DNA from: Actinoplanes oblitus
GTDB lineage: Bacteria; Actinomycetota; Actinomycetes; Mycobacteriales; Micromonosporaceae
Length of the DNA stretch: 64,000 nucleotides
Reading direction: 5' to 3'
Assembly (NCBI RefSeq): GCF_030252345.1
Contig: NZ_CP126980.1
Span: forward strand, 2,929,501-2,993,500
Positions 4,092 through 45,206 of this stretch are shown here, in pieces. The notes beneath the pieces are model-generated. The model was not told the origin of the DNA. It did no database searches and saw only the letters and a program-made list of their open reading frames with translations. The number at the start of each line of letters is the position of its first letter. The first letter of the stretch is position 1. A program made the translations under genes and the position numbers.

Positions 4092-4182
4092 CGCCCTCCC
4101 AGGGGGAGCCCCCGAAAGTCAGTGTGACGGGAGATCGCGGGTCGCGCCCGGCGGCCTGTGGACAACTCCCAGTTGTGGATAC
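4092..4182 (+). repeat. 91-bp dispersed element, copy 1 (paired DnaA-box-like 9-mers)
   Basis: First of three same-length copies (others at 34722 and 44350). It opens with CGCCC/CGCCCT and a G-run, has GTGTG at element positions 31-35, and ends with two 9-mers: TGTGGACAA (4157-4165) and TGTGGATAC (4174-4182), 17 bp apart start to start. The complement of the first, TTGTCCACA, is the DnaA-box form known from Streptomyces. The copy lies in the convergent gap between SDR and azoR. Confidence 0.75.
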
Positions 4183-11464: not shown

Positions 11465-12235
11465 CTACTTGTTGACGTCGTCGCGCCAGGTCAGCCACTC
11501 GCGCAGTTCGCCCAGGTCCGGCTTGGGGCCGCCGACGTGCACGGTGAACATGCGGGCGCCCAGCTCGCGCGCGGCCTCCCGGGTGTCCGGCTTGGCGACC
11601 ACCGAGACCTCGATCTCGTCGCGGTCGCGACCGATCGCCGCGCAGTGCTCCCCGAGCACGGTGAGCTTGTGCTCCAGCGCCTCGCCGGTCGCGAACGAGT
11701 GCCAGATGTCGGCGTGCTTGGCGACCAGGCGCAGGGTCTTCTTCTCGCCGCCGCCGCCGATCAGCACGGGGATCTTTCGGGTGGGCGGCGGGTTGAGCTT
11801 GCCCCAGCGGGACTCGATGCGGGGGAGAGCTTCGGCCAGGTCGTCGAGGCGGCCGCCGGCGGTGCCGAACTCGTAGCCGTACTCGGTGTAGTCGCGCTCG
11901 AACCAGCCCGAGCCGATGCCGAGGATGAGGCGGCCCTCGGAGATGTGGTCCACCGTGCGGGCCATGTCGGCCAGCAGCTCCGGGTTGCGGTAGCTGTTGC
12001 AGGAGACCAGGGCGCCGATCTCCACCCGGGAGGTGGACTCGGCCCAGGCGGCGAGCATGGTCCAGCACTCGAAGTGCAGCCCGTCCGGCTCGCCGCTGAG
12101 CGGGTAGAAGTGGTCCCAGTTGAACAGGACGTCCACCCCGGCCTCCTCGGCCTCGGCGGCGGTGCGCCGGATGGTGGGGTAGTCCATGTGCTGCGGCTGC
12201 AGTTGCAGCCCGATCCGAACCGGCCTATCGATCAT
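11465..12235 (-). CDS. LLM class F420-dependent oxidoreductase
   Basis: A 256-residue luciferase-like TIM-barrel enzyme. Landmarks are the N-terminal RIGLQLQPQHMDY, the LFNWDHFYPL segment, IGALVSCNSYRNPELLADMARTVDHIS, and ERDYTEYGYEFGT, all typical of the LLM F420 family of actinobacteria. It would transfer hydride between coenzyme F420 and an organic substrate that cannot be named. It lies 9 bases downstream of a lipoprotein gene on the same strand and is probably co-transcribed with it. Confidence 0.85.
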   Translation of the reverse strand: MIDRPVRIGLQLQPQHMDYPTIRRTAAEAEEAGVDVLFNWDHFYPLSGEPDGLHFECWTMLAAWAESTSRVEIGALVSCNSYRNPELLADMARTVDHISEGRLILGIGSGWFERDYTEYGYEFGTAGGRLDDLAEALPRIESRWGKLNPPPTRKIPVLIGGGGEKKTLRLVAKHADIWHSFATGEALEHKLTVLGEHCAAIGRDRDEIEVSVVAKPDTREAARELGARMFTVHVGGPKPDLGELREWLTWRDDVNK

Positions 12236-17837: not shown

Positions 17838-17961
17838 AACCACCCCGCCCCCTCACGGCCGTCTCCCCTCACGACCGCCCATTTCCGGTACGCCCGGAAG
17901 CCCCGCCCCCTCACCCCGCACCCCGTCCCGCCTCGTCGTCACCGCCCGCCTTGTAGGCCGC

Positions 17962-18344
17962 ATGCCACCGTCACGCCCAGCCGACCGTCTCCGGCTGGTC
18001 CTCGCGGTGGTGTCCCGAGCCTGGATGCCACCGTCACGGCCAGCCGGCCGTCTGCGGCTGGTGCTCGCGGTGGTGTCCCGGGCCTGGATGCCACCGTCAC
18101 GCCCAGCCGGCCGTCTCCGGCTGGTCCTCGCGGTGGTGTCCCGGGCCTGGATGCCACCGTCACGGCCAGCCGGCCGTCTCCGGCTGGTCCTCACGGTGGT
18201 GTCCCGAGCCCTGATACGACCGTCACGGCCAGCCGGCCGTCTCCGGCTGGTCCTCACGGTGGTGTCCCGAGCCCGGATGCAACCGTCGCGCCAAGCCGGG
18301 TGTCTGCGGCTGGTGCTCGCGGTGGTGTCCCGGGCCCGGATAGG
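17962..18344. repeat. 63-bp minisatellite (left part of split array)
   Basis: Units begin at 17962, 18025, 18088, 18151, 18214, 18277 and 18340, an exact 63-bp spacing. A unit runs ATGCCACCGTCACG...CCAGCCGGCCGTCTCC...GGCTGGTC...CGGTGGTGTCCC. The seventh copy is cut after five bases by the IS element and resumes at 20119. The same 63-bp layout recurs in frame inside cydDC at 26775-26965. Open frames through the array are a by-product of the period being divisible by three; I do not call a gene in 17838-18344. Confidence 0.88.
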
Positions 18345-21333: not shown

Positions 21334-21337
21334 GGTC

Positions 21338-21513
21338 GCCGACCCTAACAAGAGCCGATGACCGCTGGCAGCCGACCCTGACAAGAGCTGGTCGCCGACC
21401 TGACGAGAGCCGATGACCGCTGGCAGCCGACCCTGACAAGAGCTGGTCGCCGACCTGACGAGAGCCGATGACCGCTGGTAGCCGACGTGACAAGAGCTGG
21501 TCGCGGACCCGGG
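21338..21513. repeat. 55-bp tandem repeat upstream of folP-like gene
   Basis: AGAGCCGATGACCGCTGG recurs at 21351, 21406 and 21461, an exact 55-bp period, with ACAAGAGCTGGTCGC in each unit. About three near-identical copies fill the gap between the divergent folP-like (start 21333) and zinc-ribbon (start 21536) genes, so both promoters must lie in or beside the repeats. Confidence 0.85.
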
Positions 21514-24230: not shown

Positions 24231-27200
24231 CTAGATGACTCCGACATTTAGCTTAGCGCTGGACAGTTCGTAAATTTCGTCCACAAGGTCGAGGCCCTCC
24301 GCCCGGTGCGCGAAGACCAGCACGGTACGTCCGGACGCCGCGTCCAGCAGGTCGGCCATCAACTCGCGCGCCCCGGCCTCGTCGATGCCCTCGGTCGGCT
24401 CGTCCAGGATCAGCAGCGCCGGATCGGCCAGCAGCGCCCGGGCCGTCGCCAGCCGCCGCCGCTGCCCGCCCGACATCGTGCTGCCACCGGCACCCAGCCA
24501 GGTGTCCAGGCCGTCCGCCAGGCCGGCCAGCCACGGGCCGAGACCGACCCGCCGCAGCGCGGCGACAAGCTGCGGATCGGTCGCGGCGGGCATCGCGAGA
24601 CGGAGATTTTCCCGTACGGTGGAAGCGAACACATGCCCGGTCTCGCCCCCGACCAGCAGGGCCTTCCCTCCGACCCGGACATCGCCGGCCCGCGGCGCCA
24701 GCAGCCCGCCGAGCACCGCCCCGAGCGTCGACTTCCCCGAACCGGACCGGCCGGTGATCGCGACCTTGGCGCCGGCCGGCAGGGTCAGGTCCAGGCCGTC
24801 GAGCGCCGGTTCCGCGGCGGGATCCCAGCCCGCCACCAGCCCCGATACCCGGACCACCCCGTCCGCGACCCCCGCGCCGTCTCGCCGCGATCCGTCGTCT
24901 CGCCGCGATCCGTCGTCTCGCCGCGATGCGTCGTCCGGCCGCGATCCGGCATCCAGCTGCGCTCGGTCGTCTCGCCGCGATCCGTCGTCCGGCCGCGATC
25001 CGGCGTCCAGCGGTGCGAGGGCCGTCGTGGGTGCCGGGTCCGGGCCGGGAAGGCGCCGGTCGGTCGTGGTCAGGGCGGCGACCCGGCGTTCGGCGCCGGC
25101 CGCCCGCCGCCGGGCGATCGCCGCGTCGGGCAGCGCCACCACCGGCTCGCCCAGAGCGATCACTCCGAGCAGCAGCACCGCACTCCACTCCGCCGAGATC
25201 CCGGCCCCGGCCAGAAGCAGGGCGGTCCCGCCCGCCGCCACCGCCCACCCGAGATGCGCGATCGCCGTGGCCAGTCCGGCAGTCCGCGCCGCTCGCGCCT
25301 CCAGGTCCGCGAGGGTGCGGCTGCGATCCTCCGGTACGCCGGAGCGCCCGCCGCCGGCCGCCAGCTCCTCGACCCCGTCCACCGTCTCCACCATGGCGTC
25401 CCGCAGCGCGGCCCGCGCCACCGCCGTCGCCGCCTCCTGCCGGTCCGCCTGCCAGCCGGCCACCAGCGGAGCGATCACCCCGGCCGTCAGCAGCCCGATC
25501 GCGAGCGGCGCGATCACCGCCGGCGAGATCAGTACCGCCGCCGCGGCGGCCACCACCACGGTCACCGCCGCGGTCCAGGCCGGCAACCAGCCCCGGAGCA
25601 ACCCGTCCACCCGCGCGTCCACGTCGTCGACCAGCCGGGTCAGCAGGTCCCCGCGCCGGTGCAGCAGCGGCCCCGGCACCCGCGGGATCAGACTCGCGTA
25701 GATCCGGGCCCGCCGCCGCCCCAGCCGCGCGAACGCCACGTCGTGCGCCACCAGCCGCTCCAGGTACCGCAGCAGCGGCCGGGCCACCGCACTCCCACGC
25801 ACCAGCACCACCGCCGCGGACAGCGTCAGCACCGGCGGCAACGACGCGGCCCGCACCAGCAGCCACGCCGCGGATCCGGTCAGCACCAGCCCGCCGAGCA
25901 CCGCCGCCGCCCCCAGCGCCACCGCCACCCAGACCCGCCGCCACCACGGCGCCGCGGCCTCGCCCGTGCCCACGTCGCCACGCCGGTCGTCCCCAGCCGG
26001 CCCGGCGTCCGGCCCGCTGTTCGCCGCCGCGGAGAAAGCAGCCGGCATCACGCCCGTCTCGCGAGCCGGTGGCCGCAGGTCGACGACGCGATCGGCGGCG
26101 GCGAGCAGTGCCGGCCGGTGCGCGACCACCAGAACGGCGCATCCACGTTCGGCGAACTCCCGCAACCGCGCGATCACCACCCCCTCGGCATCCGGGTCCA
26201 GATGCGCTGTCGGCTCGTCGAGCAGCAGGGTGACCACCGGCGCCGGGCGGCGTCTCGGCCCGGCTCCGTCGCGGTGCCGACAGTCGGCAGCCCGCTCGGC
26301 CGGGGCCATCGCGCGCCCGGCCCGGTGCAGCAGCGCGGCCAGCGCCAGCCGCTGCCGCTGACCGGCGGAGATACCGTTCCCGTGCTCGCCGAGCGGCGTG
26401 GCCGGGGTGACCTCGCCGTCCAGCCCGACCATCCGCAGCGCATCCCGGACCTCGTCGTCGGTGGCGTCCGCGGCGAAGGCCTCACCGATCGTCCGCGCAT
26501 ACGGCAACGCCGGACGCTGCGACAGATGAAACGCCCGCCCCACCGCGATCGCCCCCGAGCCGGCCGGGTGCAGCCCGGCGAGCACCCGTAACGCCGTGCT
26601 CTTGCCCGCCCCGGACGGTCCCCGCAGCGCGACGATCTCGCCCGCCCGGACCGCCAGTTCGCGAAGGTGCAGCGCGTCGCCGCCCACGCCGGGGTAGCCG
26701 GCGCGCACCCCGGCCGCGAGCACCCCCCACCGCCCGGTCGCCGCCAACGCGGCCCAGTCCGCAGCCCCCACCCCGGCCGCAGACCCCCGGCTGGTCGTCA
26801 CGGTGGTCTCCGGCGCCTTGTTACCACCGTTCGTGCCAGCCGCGTGGTTCTGGCTGGTCGTCAGGGTGGTCTCCGGCGCCCTGATGCCACCGTGTGTGCC
26901 AGCCGCGTGGTTCTGGCTGGTCGTCACGGTGGTCTCGGGTGTGTTGATACCACCGTGAGTGCCAGCCGCGAGGATCTCGTCTACGTCGGCGATCACAGCG
27001 GTGGCGTCGGTGGCGGCGTGGTAGCGGGCGGCCATCTCGCGCAGCGGCCGGTACGCCTCCGGCGCCAGCAGGATCGCCAGCAGGGCCGGGGCCAGCGGCA
27101 TCGAGCCGTCGGCCACCCGGACGCCGGCCTGCACGGCGATCAGCCCCACCGACAGGGTGCCGACCAGGTCCAGCGCTGTCGACGACAGGAACGCCACCCG

Positions 27201-31944: not shown

Positions 31945-32082
31945 TCTGACGAACCACCGCCCAATCGCCGCGACGGCGAGCCGGGGACCCAGGTAGGTGG
32001 GGTGAAGCCGTTGGAGAGCGGCCGGGCGTGCTTCCCGCCCGAACCCGTCAGCTAACCCGGTCGGCGGCCGAGTGGAAGAAAG
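31945..32082 (+). ncRNA. c-di-AMP riboswitch (ydaO/yuaA leader)
   Basis: The conserved ydaO-class blocks appear in order: GAGCCGGGGACCCA (about 31978-31991), GGTGGGGTGAAGCC, a variable GC stem, then CCCGAACCCGTCAGCTAACC (about 32038-32057) and the closing strand GGTCGGCGG. The leader ends just before the GAAAGGA ribosome site of the NlpC/P60 gene. In actinobacteria this class typically precedes cell-wall hydrolases and turns expression off when c-di-AMP is high. Boundaries are approximate. Confidence 0.9.
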
Positions 32083-32096
32083 GACAACGCACCTAC

Positions 32097-33059
32097 GTGA
32101 AGCGCGTACTACGCGGCCTGCTCTGTGCGGTTGCCGCTGCCGGACTCGTTGTCACCGGACCTGTCGTTGCCCACGCCACGCCCTCGCCGTCCAGCGTCGA
32201 GGACCAGATCGACAAGCAGTGGAACGAACTCGAGCCGGTGATCGAGGACTTCAACGACACCCACGGGAAGCTGCTCAAGCTGCAGAAGCAGCAGAAGCAG
32301 CTGAACAAGACGCTCGCTCCGCTGCAGAAACAAGTGGACGTGGCACTGGCCGAAGTCCGCGGCCTCGCGTCGGACGCCTACATGCAGGGTCCGCCGAGCG
32401 CCATGGGCGCGATTCTGAGCGGTTCGCCGACCGGCCTGACCGAGAAGCTCTCGCTCCTCGAGCAGCTGGCCGCCAACCGCCGCGAGTCGATCAGCGGTGT
32501 CGTGAAGCTGCGCGACAAGTACGCCGCTGACAAGGAGAAACTGGACGCTCTGGCGTCCGAGATCGCCACTCGGGACACCGACCTCAAGACCAAGAAGTCG
32601 GCGATCGAGAAGGAGATCACCGCCCTGCAGAAACTGCGGGTGAAGGCGTACGGCAAGGCCGACGACGGGCCGTACAAGACCGGGCCGTGCCCGGTCGACT
32701 ACACCAACGACATCGGTGGCCGGGCCGCGCAGAAGGCCTGCGACCTGATCGGCAAGCCCTACGTCTTCGGTTCCGAGGGTCCGGACAGCTACGACTGCTC
32801 GGGCCTGACGAAAGAGGCGTGGGCGTCCGTCGGCGTGCACCTCGAGCACTACACGAAGGATCAGTGGGGTTCCACGAAACCGGTGAGCCGCAGTGAGTTG
32901 AGACCCGGTGACCTGGTCTTCTACTACTCCGATGTGCACCATGTGTCCATCTACATCGGTGGTGGCATGGTGGTGCACGCGCCGCACACGGGCGACCACG
33001 TGCGGATGGCGACCATCGATCGTGGTCCGATCGCCGGCTATCGCCGGCCCGCGGGCTAG
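32097..33059 (+). CDS. secreted NlpC/P60 peptidoglycan endopeptidase
   Basis: A 320-residue exported enzyme. Signal peptide (KRVLRGLLCAVAAAGLVVTG...AHA), a long coiled coil (about residues 30-190, rich in K/Q/L/E) and a C-terminal NlpC/P60 domain. Catalytic Cys lies in YDCSGLT and His in HHVSIYIG. It resembles RipA/RpfB-associated hydrolases that cut stem peptides during division or growth. The GTG at 32097 follows GAAAGGA. It sits under a c-di-AMP riboswitch and ends in a strong terminator, so it is a single-gene unit. Confidence 0.92.
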   Translation: MKRVLRGLLCAVAAAGLVVTGPVVAHATPSPSSVEDQIDKQWNELEPVIEDFNDTHGKLLKLQKQQKQLNKTLAPLQKQVDVALAEVRGLASDAYMQGPPSAMGAILSGSPTGLTEKLSLLEQLAANRRESISGVVKLRDKYAADKEKLDALASEIATRDTDLKTKKSAIEKEITALQKLRVKAYGKADDGPYKTGPCPVDYTNDIGGRAAQKACDLIGKPYVFGSEGPDSYDCSGLTKEAWASVGVHLEHYTKDQWGSTKPVSRSELRPGDLVFYYSDVHHVSIYIGGGMVVHAPHTGDHVRMATIDRGPIAGYRRPAG

Positions 33060-34674: not shown

Positions 34675-34687
34675 GTGCGAGGTGGCC

Positions 34688-34738
34688 CGCCACTCTCGAG
34701 TCCCCGCCGCTCTCGAGTCCCCGCCCGCCCTGGGGGCC
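34688..34738. repeat. 17-bp tandem repeat before element copy 2
   Basis: Three units of the type CGCCACTCTCGAGTCCC start at 34688, 34705 and 34722. The array begins 14 bases after the epoxide hydrolase stop, and its third unit is the first bases of the 91-bp element. A longer array with the same period and related unit (CGCCACCTCCCAGTCC) precedes copy 3 at 44215. Confidence 0.75.
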
Positions 34739-34812
34739 GTCCCAGGAGACAGTGTGGCGCGGAAACGGGCCCTCCCGGGGCGGGGCTGTGGACAACGCGC
34801 TGGTGTGGACGA
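34722..34812 (+). repeat. 91-bp dispersed element, copy 2
   Basis: Same length as copies 1 and 3, about four-fifths identical to copy 3 by hand alignment. GGGGGCCGTC (element 11-20) and GACAGTGTGG (27-36) are shared with copy 3. It ends with TGTGGACAA (34787-34795) and TGTGGACGA (34804-34812), again 17 bp apart. It lies between the epoxide hydrolase and AAA ATPase genes, which run in the same direction. Confidence 0.78.
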
Positions 34813-43646: not shown

Positions 43647-44129
43647 TCAGTCCCACCAGTTCAGGGGGTTGCCGTCCGGGTCGTAGACGTTGCCGTACTC
43701 CCAGTGGTCGCCACGCGGGGTGGTCCACGCGTCGATGGCCGCCTCGACCGCGTCGAAGCCCGCGGCGGCCGGCACGGTGATCACGATGAACCGGCGGTCC
43801 GCGGGCAGCTCGACGATCCCGCCCAGGTCGTCGAAGCTGTCCCGGAGCGGGGCCAGGTCCTCCGGCGCGGGCGGGTCGCCGGGGACCACCAGCAGGCAGA
43901 TGTTCCCGCCGCGGTGGACGACCTCGAAGCCGCCGCCCGCGCGTACCCGGATCTGATCGCCCGCCGCGATCCCCTCGACGAACGCGGGCGTGCCGAGCAC
44001 CAGGTGCAGATCCGGCTCGATGGTCCGGGTCAGCACCGTCTCGTAGACAAGCTGGCCACCCGATCCCAGCCCGGCCACCAGCCGGACGTGCGTTTGCTCC
44101 GCCATTTTTTCAACGGTCACGCCGGGCAT
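43647..44129 (-). CDS. DUF4265 domain protein
   Basis: A 160-residue soluble protein. HVRLVAGLGSG, GIAAGDQIRVRAGGGFEVVHRGGN, DRRFIVITVPAAAGFDAVEAAIDA and the terminal WEYGNVYDPDGNPLNWWD match the DUF4265 family, whose role is unknown. The start is uncertain: ATG 44129 or ATG 44105 (MAEQTHVRL); neither has a strong ribosome site. Convergent with the E1-like gene. Confidence 0.65.
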   Translation of the reverse strand: MPGVTVEKMAEQTHVRLVAGLGSGGQLVYETVLTRTIEPDLHLVLGTPAFVEGIAAGDQIRVRAGGGFEVVHRGGNICLLVVPGDPPAPEDLAPLRDSFDDLGGIVELPADRRFIVITVPAAAGFDAVEAAIDAWTTPRGDHWEYGNVYDPDGNPLNWWD

Positions 44130-44214: not shown

Positions 44215-44366
44215 CGCCGTCTCCCGGTCTTCGCCGTGTCCGGGTTCCCGCCGTGCCGCGGTTCTCGCCGTCTCCGGGTCCCCGCCGAGTTTCGGTCTTC
44301 GCCACCTCCCAGTCCCGCCACCTCCCAGTCCCCGCCACCTCCCAGTCCCCGCCCACCCAGGGGGCC
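44215..44366. repeat. 17-bp tandem repeat before element copy 3
   Basis: Units start at 44215, 44232, 44249, 44266, 44283, 44300, 44316, 44333 and 44350: period 17 with one slip to 16. Early units (CGCCGTCTCCCGGTCTT) are diverged; the last three are near-identical CGCCACCTCCCAGTCCC. The array runs directly into the 91-bp element, as at 34688. It is part of the 684-base gene-free stretch 44130-44813. Confidence 0.82.
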
Positions 44367-44440
44367 GTCCCCGAAGACAGTGTGGTGCCGGAGGCGGGCC
44401 TTGCGCGGGTGGGCTGTGGACAAGGCGCTGGTGTGGATAA
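44350..44440 (+). repeat. 91-bp dispersed element, copy 3
   Basis: Best-preserved copy. CAGGGGGCCGTCCCCGAAG, then GACAGTGTGG, and the terminal pair TGTGGACAA (44415-44423) and TGTGGATAA (44432-44440), 17 bp apart. The complements TTGTCCACA and TTATCCACA are the Streptomyces and E. coli DnaA-box consensus forms respectively. It stands in the gene-free stretch between two leftward genes. Confidence 0.8.
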
Positions 44441-44584: not shown

Positions 44585-44765
44585 GGTTGGCCGGGCGGTT
44601 CCCTCCGGCTGGGCAGTCGAGGCTGTGGTGGCGGTGGAGGGCGCGGGCCGGGCGGTTCCCTCCGGTTGGGCGGTCGACGGGTGTGGTGGCGGTGGAGGGG
44701 TGCGGGCCGGGCGGTTCCCTCCGGTTGGGCGGCCGACGGATGTGGCGGCTTGAGGGGTGCGGGCC
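44585..44765. repeat. 57-59 bp tandem repeat
   Basis: GGGCGGTTCCCTCCGG recurs at 44593, 44650 and 44709, each followed by TTGGGCGG/CTGGGCAG and a GTGGTGGCGGTGGAGGG tract. About three units. Frames through it are repetitive and not credible genes. It directly precedes a strong hairpin at 44781. Confidence 0.75.
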
Positions 44766-44780
44766 GGGTGGAAGGGTGCG

Positions 44781-44813: not shown

Positions 44814-45206
44814 TCAGCAGTTGCGCAGCTCAGGGGACTGGTTGAGCAGCTGGCCGCGTGGGGAGACGAAGCGCTGGAACCGCTCGCTGCCCACCGCCGA
44901 GAAGTCGAAGGCGGCCACCCGGTGGCAGTTCTGGAATGCCAGCTTGGCGCCGAAGTGGCGTTCCAGGCCACCGCGGATGGCGTCGCTGGCCAGCGCCCGC
45001 AGCAGCTGGCCGCGCTCCAGGTCGGAGGGCGGCGGGACCTCATGATCGGCGAAGTCCGCGCCGTTGGCCCGCAGGTCGGTCACCACCGTGGTGACCACCT
45101 CCCATGCGTACGGCAGTGACTCGCGCACGCACGCGACGAACTCGGCGTCGGTGACCTCTCCGCGTTCCGCGACGGCGAGCAGATCCGGCGACACGTTGAG
45201 CGACAT
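44814..45206 (-). CDS. SCO5389 family protein
   Basis: A 130-residue protein with the sequence pattern of the actinobacterial SCO5389 family: MSLNVSPDLLAVAERGEVTD, RESLPYAWEVV, ERGQLLRALASDAIRGGLER, FQNCHRVAAF and the terminal RGQLLNQSPELRNC. Function is unknown; the family is conserved in sporulating actinomycetes. ATG 45206 follows GAAAGGAAAC. An A/T-rich promoter region (GGAAACGGTTTTCATTTC around 45250) lies upstream. Confidence 0.8.
   Translation of the reverse strand: MSLNVSPDLLAVAERGEVTDAEFVACVRESLPYAWEVVTTVVTDLRANGADFADHEVPPPSDLERGQLLRALASDAIRGGLERHFGAKLAFQNCHRVAAFDFSAVGSERFQRFVSPRGQLLNQSPELRNC

Follow-up and report, generated by a model that had tools for sequence, protein, structure and literature searches.

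An element of 91 bp occurs three times in the stretch of 64,000 nucleotides from Actinoplanes oblitus analysed here (the window), and each copy carries at one end two 9-mers that resemble DnaA boxes. Two questions are raised by this locus: (i) what the pair of boxes does; and (ii) which protein recognizes it. The answer that we prefer, and to which we give a probability of roughly 65%, is that the boxes serve as the operator through which an activator controls a competence-type regulon, the 91-mer being an orphan copy of this operator that has been dispersed.

Three copies of a promoter-like element

The copies lie at positions 4092 to 4182 (copy 1), 34722 to 34812 (copy 2) and 44350 to 44440 (copy 3), and align over all 91 bp without a gap, as the original prediction had stated. 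Its hand count of 72 identical positions of 91 between copies 2 and 3 was confirmed, and the other two comparisons gave 58/91 (copies 1 and 3) and 56/91 (copies 1 and 2). With genes taken from our own codon model, all three copies are indeed intergenic and share the plus-strand orientation in which they had been described. As for the claim that each ends in two DnaA-box-like 9-mers at a fixed spacing, the likeness and the spacing stand, but the second box is exact in copy 3 only, being TGTGGATAC in copy 1 and TGTGGACGA in copy 2. TGTGGACAA-N8-TGTGGATAA, with up to 3 mismatches allowed, has three occurrences in the window, and 100 shuffles gave none; TTATCCACA with at most one mismatch occurs five times in the 64 kb, always within the three elements, where 1.43 occurrences are expected and five were reached by 1 of 100 shuffles. 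Such a family of 9-mers at fixed spacing supports the earlier suggestion that a protein or complex is probably bound here.

We read the element on the strand opposite to that of the original prediction, where it would be a promoter-like operator. The order on the minus strand is a distal box, the proximal box (TTGTCCACAG) 17 bp further on, a hexamer 39 nt on (such distances start at the first base of the proximal TTG) and, after about 7 nt, a G-run, which would stand where transcription should start. In copy 3, the distal box TTATCCACA (44432 to 44440, minus strand, like all features of the copies that follow) and the proximal box TTGTCCACA (44415 to 44423) precede a −10-like hexamer, CACACT, at 44379 to 44384, 39 nt from the proximal TTG. 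The predicted +1 is at 44371, as judged from the 7-nt distance to ATG in promoters that have the boxes without the GC-rich end (bare sites, see below), and the conserved GC-rich module (44352 to 44371) would be the start of the transcript. Copy 2 has the same proximal box TTGTCCACA (34787 to 34795), the distal box TCGTCCACA (34804 to 34812), CACACT at 34751 to 34756 and a predicted +1 at 34743; the corresponding features of copy 1 are TTGTCCACA (4157 to 4165), GTATCCACA (4174 to 4182), CACACT (4121 to 4126) and a predicted +1 at 4113.

Transcription from copy 3 would first meet a gene of the DUF4265 family (43647 to 44129, minus strand), which starts 242 nt past the predicted +1 and whose relative in genome G027 has no element upstream. 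Abutting copy 3 is a 17-bp tandem array of 8.2 copies (44215 to 44353, strand not assigned), and a 17-bp array of 2.4 copies (34686 to 34725) abuts copy 2. These arrays are neighbours that are not common to all copies: among 75 elements, arrays lie to the left of 42 and to the right of 27, with 26 reaching the edge, and their units are unrelated, even at the copy 2 site shared with genome G037. We therefore dropped them as a part of the element. Many tandem arrays with units of 17 to 63 bp occur in or near gaps of the source genome, and the window holds others, for example at 17958 to 18341, 21334 to 21509, 26789 to 26977 and 44589 to 44768. There are two further features of the window to record. 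A 130-aa open reading frame at 44814 to 45206 (minus strand) is covered from end to end by a match to Pfam PF20704, ‘NucS shadow ORF’; the strand opposite has no long open frame, and the Pfam label may not fit that protein. In a search of Rfam the element matched no family, and the sole match in the window was a c-di-AMP riboswitch elsewhere (RF00379, 79.9 bits, 31948 to 32081, plus strand), upstream of a gene called at 32097.

Copy number, placement and turnover in Actinoplanes

The window lies in a 9.81 Mb single-contig chromosome, the contig of which begins at dnaA. One gene of the window finds its best matches in Actinoplanes, the top ones at 85–88%. The expectation that the core is commoner in the genome than chance would allow proved correct: there are 48 exact matches to TGTGGAC-N10-TGTGGA (20 on the forward strand, 28 on the reverse) and 0 in a reversed control. 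When the spacing was relaxed to TGTGGA-N(2-32)-TGTGGA, 90 pairs were found genome-wide and 24 in the reversed control; by hand count 51 of the 90 have exactly 11 bases between the boxes, that is, the 48 exact pairs and three that lack the C. We split the 48 by eye into 39 ‘full’ copies with the GC-rich module and 9 ‘bare’ sites without it. A sequence-only profile built from 38 full copies gave 57 matches in the same genome, of which 50 were treated as full (one of them weak, at 31 bits), six correspond to bare sites and the last to a neighbouring pair of different spacing. Across the genus, the exact pair is present in 67 of 67 genomes, with 1 to 110 copies each, and its reversed control gave a single match in nine of them; the profile has a match in 66 of 67, with at most 60 candidates scored per genome, so that high counts are lower bounds. 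A scan for TGTGGA-N11-TGTGGA in 63 loci around matches of one window gene found none.

The invariance of the TGTGGA cores and of the C is by construction, because the search pattern required them. Conserved though not required are a C before box 1, AA after box 1, the CCC and GGG tracts, and the hexamer block (CAGTGTGGCGG on the plus strand). Of the 40 full copies of the A. oblitus genome that have the exact pair in the loci used, 34 have a hexamer of the form [CT]A...T at exactly 39, and of 30 bare sites of the genus (9 own and 21 from relatives) 17 have it at 39 and 4 at 40, a constancy of place that is expected for the −10 hexamer of a sigma70-type promoter. Relatives have GATAAT, CATAAT or CACAAT at this place, and such varied words fit a −10 rather than one fixed word. 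In two bare sites of the A. oblitus genome the hexamer is not at 39 but at 49 (L001) and 48 (L182), which speaks against the operator.

Where the full copies lie is a further point against the operator. They occupy 26 convergent gaps, 11 and 8 co-directional gaps of the two kinds and 4 divergent gaps, with 1 copy inside a called ORF, and at 37 of 49 transcription would run into a gene that points the opposite way. We therefore rejected the reading in which a full copy simply drives the gene that follows it. The convergent excess (26/49) has p = 2.5e-4 against the window and 0.07 against a second background, which is biased by adjoining elements; of the copies read from G027 and G037, 24 of 34 are convergent. 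A bidirectional terminator between convergent genes was considered and rejected, as it would not explain the boxes and the hexamer.

The original prediction had listed DnaA titration among its possibilities and had called for the copies to be plotted against oriC. A titration-like lean towards the origin is in fact present: the mean relative distance from origin to terminus is 0.346 (n = 50), a value as low in 1 of 20,000 uniform draws, with 23/50 copies in the origin-nearest 30% and 3/50 in the terminus-nearest 30%. For the best-scoring copies listed from G037 (50) and G027 (15), with origins inferred from alignment to the window, the means are 0.411 (281 of 20,000 draws as low) and 0.318 (140 of 20,000). 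There is no KOPS-like polarity along the replication fork, 28 of 50 copies being co-directional, and that idea was dropped.

Another of the earlier possibilities, non-autonomous dispersal, is supported by subfamilies and by presence and absence at the same site in relatives. Pairs of copies with more than 75% identity number 12 of 703, against 0.4 expected and at most 2 in 40 column shuffles, which implies that copies descend from one another. Copy 2 has orthologues in G027 and G037 and is absent in G031 and G053 (gaps of 50 and 47 bp), and G027, G043 and G060 lack copy 3. Flanks matching an element locus of the A. oblitus genome were found for 5 of 14 copies in G027 (15 were fetched, one of them without the exact pair) and for 3 of 20 in G037. 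In ten comparisons at shared sites, where orthologous copies had been found by the required box core, conservation was 0.70–1.00 in the GC module, 0.71–0.95 in the hexamer block and 0.77–0.97 in the boxes, and 0.49–0.59 in the left 100 bp (forced alignment). The right 100 bp, which are partly coding, gave 0.50–0.90; that they are sometimes conserved like the boxes does not favour the operator.

Box pairs before uptake genes

Seven of the nine bare sites of the A. oblitus genome lie in divergent gaps by our own gene calls, a caller that lost or misplaced some small genes (e.g., at L176 and L185). Among the genes that these sites face, Pfam identifies comEA (HHH_3, SLBB), yraN (UPF0102) followed by comM (Mg_chelatase), ssb, and genes for an AbiEi_4 protein, a WXG100 protein and a class I tRNA synthetase. 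Named by eye are comEC after comEA (DUF4131 is below the cut-off), an M23-type protein like that at L280, and a SAF/CpaB-like protein without a Pfam match; the neighbour of one site is a RecQ-like helicase, and no gene clearly follows in the direction of transcription. The sites at comEA, yraN-comM, ssb and the M23-type gene have the layout of the element without its GC-rich end, and comEA, yraN-comM and ssb have one putative operator in common. The recA gene of the same genome (L308) has a pair with 18-bp spacing. An ATG or GTG lies 6–9 nt past the hexamer (at 39, 40, 48 or 49) in 18 of 25 bare sites, irrespective of frame, which suggests that their messages are leaderless and start there. 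Among 30 genus genomes with one listed site each, nine sites have the GC module by eye, and the other 21 lie at yraN (7), ssb (2), comEA (1 clear case), an M23-type gene (1), a DUF4192 gene (1) and other or unnamed genes.

Some bare sites resemble one another closely. L004 and L185 are identical over both boxes and the spacer, yet lie at different genes, and L001 and L182 have a common spacer, for which copying or gene conversion may be asked. A gene for an AbiEi_4-domain protein, usually an antitoxin-type regulator, follows a box pair in two families (L178 in A. oblitus, L277 elsewhere), and it is a possible member of the regulon on this pattern of occurrence. A protein at L297 that looked AbiEi-like by eye was dropped, as it has no Pfam match.

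The box pair is conserved above background in other lineages. Upstream of comEA, a same-strand TCCACA pair 10–35 bp apart is present at 23 of the 30 loci listed from 61 Micromonosporaceae genomes searched; 14 of the 23 pairs are at 19 bp, and eight control words gave none. In the class, 57 of 60 genomes searched had a yraN match, and the pair is upstream of 16 of the 30 loci listed (control, 1 in 240 cells); for comEA, 58 of 60 genomes matched, and among the 30 loci listed 10 have the pair, in 9 of 19 families, and 23 have at least one box (control, 2 in 240 cells). The A. oblitus genome is one of the 30 in both class sets. Background gene starts have a pair in 0 of 1,037 and one box in 68, the 1,037 genes being drawn from 63 loci around one gene and thus not fully independent. 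In a second background 2 of 276 have a pair; one is comEA itself (L212) and the other is the DUF4265 gene that neighbours window copy 3. Because the stretches compared were 1,100 bp for comEA and 330 bp for background, comEA is better judged against the control words. To be set against the operator are the listed loci that lack the exact pair: 7/30 for comEA in the family, 14/30 for yraN and 20/30 for comEA in the class.

Beyond the genus, the hexamers of comEA and yraN are mostly at 47–50, about one helical turn further than 39. The family comEA promoters have TA...T at 48–50 in 15 of 23, and the class yraN promoters have the hexamer at 47–49 in 9 of 16; class-wide comEA has it at 47–49 in 8 of 10, at 39 in A. 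oblitus and at 59 in L406 (by eye). It is chiefly because distance steps of about 10 bp fit action from one face of the helix that we call the boxes activator sites.

An unbiased scan of the class for TTGTCCACAG-N(7-24)-TCCACAG gave a match in 23 of 60 genomes, with 0 in all controls. Among the loci inspected (30 listed and 13 fetched) are comEA (L276 and L300, with adjacent TIGR00426 matches), yraN (L281, L296), ssb (L292, L303), recA (L271, and L308 of A. oblitus), an M23-type gene (L280), an AbiEi_4 gene (L277) and CpaE-like genes (L275, L283 and L284, by eye; ParA/CbiA below the cut-off). In genomes G136 and G159, one operator of 37–38 bp recurs before yraN, a CpaE-like gene and a third gene without a Pfam match. 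Not all of the matches favour our interpretation: the scan also finds parA, dnaN and other origin-side clusters, as well as a YgfZ-like gene, a response regulator, a peptidase and unnamed genes, and 11 of the 30 listed loci have no gene in the expected direction. Across families, a short putative operator of fixed geometry stands before comEA and yraN-comM, and in some it stands also before ssb, recA and Tad-type genes.

Candidate binders, rival explanations and known systems

Layout, conservation, shared geometry, association with genes, dispersal and origin bias can be read from the sequence itself, and they suggest the following scheme. An activator on the boxes would contact RNA polymerase, always from one face of the helix; it would act through the same layout before the uptake genes of A. 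oblitus, and with the −10 about one turn further before comEA and yraN-comM of other Actinomycetes. In Actinoplanes the operator-promoter would have spread, giving about 50 orphan copies in A. oblitus. These would bind the same protein and, if bound, would titrate it, so that titration may exist beside the promoter role; they may also make short non-coding transcripts. We keep three options for the orphans, which may titrate the binder, be transcribed or be merely selfish. Replication or segregation control, as first proposed, is not the main signal, since the other strand has a promoter geometry and the box pair stands before uptake genes.

As for the binder, the boxes fit the DnaA consensus, including its TT[GA] start, in TT[AG]TCCACA-type 9-mers. 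Because they carry this recognition sequence, DnaA is the leading candidate, although activation, binding by DnaA, titration and transcription of the orphans are all steps that we infer. A serious rival, with a chance of being correct that is considerable if short of even, is that the same operator binds a dedicated competence activator, such as a small protein of the HTH_17 type, of which Mlut_14660 of Micrococcus luteus is an example. Mutations that came up in a screen for higher activity of the comEA/EC promoter lie in this HTH_17 gene and in the adjacent SAF/CpaB-like gene Mlut_14650, and the mutation R64W, when re-inserted, restored the phenotype (PMC8467076). The SAF/CpaB-like gene of A. 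oblitus, recognized by eye without a Pfam match, also has a box pair, and the 14 TCCACA words in the dnaA-dnaN region of this genome are looser than the com boxes. On the other hand, no HTH_17 gene was recognized beside the SAF-like gene in the 4-kb stretch read, and the fit of the boxes to the DnaA consensus extends to the TT[GA] start. The most specific form of our proposal, that DnaA is the missing activator of the uptake genes of Actinomycetota and that in some Actinoplanes dozens of origin-biased orphans set the amount of free DnaA left for them, is tentative, and we would sooner expect it to fail than to hold. It would tie competence to the protein that initiates replication; with DnaA as the binder, DNA uptake and replication control would be linked.

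Three further explanations were weighed. Plain titration of DnaA, or replication control near the origin, with the likeness to a promoter incidental, accords with the origin bias in A. oblitus, weaker among the listed copies of G037 and G027, and with the excess of DnaA boxes near the E. coli origin, for which titration is supported (PMC12371093). It is unlikely, as titration alone leaves unexplained both a −10 hexamer at one exact distance and the pairs before uptake genes, and a range of 1 to 110 copies within one genus would be odd for an essential control. A selfish non-autonomous repeat of the REPIN or MITE kind that has captured a competence-type promoter would account for the subfamilies, the few shared sites (5/14 in G027, 3/20 in G037) and the clean absence at the copy 2 and copy 3 sites of some relatives; we regard it as doubtful. 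Inspection of the element showed neither terminal repeats nor target duplication, and neither a conserved fold nor an inverted repeat able to form a hairpin, as in a REPIN, was found; at shared sites all modules are conserved, not the ends alone. Least probable, and in our judgement very improbable, is a family of small-RNA genes driven by a regulator, with the GC-rich module as the RNA. The promoter geometry with a conserved transcribed start would suit it, but there is nothing in common further downstream in most copies, and no structure is conserved. Among 8 pairs considered for a conserved RNA fold none has changes on both sides, and neither an Rfam match nor conserved base pairs were obtained; folding is no better than in shuffles (mean z +0.51, n = 41), and a G-quadruplex is not supported, its motif being present in 12 of 41 copies where 6.8 are expected.

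The operator that we prefer has parallels in several known systems. ComK boxes and the cin-box of ComX/sigmaX are short operators of other sequence, each standing before comEA-, dprA- and ssb-type genes. Their plan is the same as here, one short operator before several uptake genes. According to PMC12849477, M. luteus lacks ComK and ComX, and the switch to competence in Actinomycetota still awaits explanation. In the regulation of M. luteus comEA/EC (Mlut_14650/14660), the likeness lies in a CpaB-like gene, which in both cases is part of the uptake programme; the sections of PMC8467076 used here define no operator for M. luteus comEA/EC. A link between DnaA and competence has a precedent in Bacillus subtilis, where DnaA and Rok co-localise and Rok represses comK (PMC11841835). 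The papers listed for DnaA boxes together with comEA do not, by their titles, concern Actinobacteria, and the operator is not named in the titles, abstract openings and passages covered, a set that takes in a minority of subscription papers.

DnaA-regulated promoters also have TTGTCCACA and TTATCCACA 9-mers as direct repeats at promoters; the element differs in its fixed box-to-(−10) distance and in the uptake and recombination genes downstream, and DnaA binding is putative here. Mobile promoters are a further class for comparison. With these and with REPIN/RAYT repeats (PMC8049555) the element has in common that it is a short dispersed intergenic unit with subfamilies and turnover; it differs from REPIN/RAYT in having no inverted pair and in carrying an operator and a −10. 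DnaA titration sites (datA-like loci, box density near the origin) resemble it as origin-biased non-coding box clusters, whereas here there are dozens of small, separate two-box units with a −10 hexamer and a GC-rich end.

A defined operator provides a site to mutate and a bait for capture of the regulator, which makes the control of competence directly testable. The orphan copies, with box-pair counts from 1 to 110 within one genus, amount to a natural titration experiment. Other TGTGGA clusters, with a 12-bp period and distinct from the 17-bp family, occur in the A. oblitus genome at about 466375–466425, 9699279–9699328 and 12077–12114, and three successive TGTGGA boxes, each 17 bp apart, are found at G007:C38:196158-196197.
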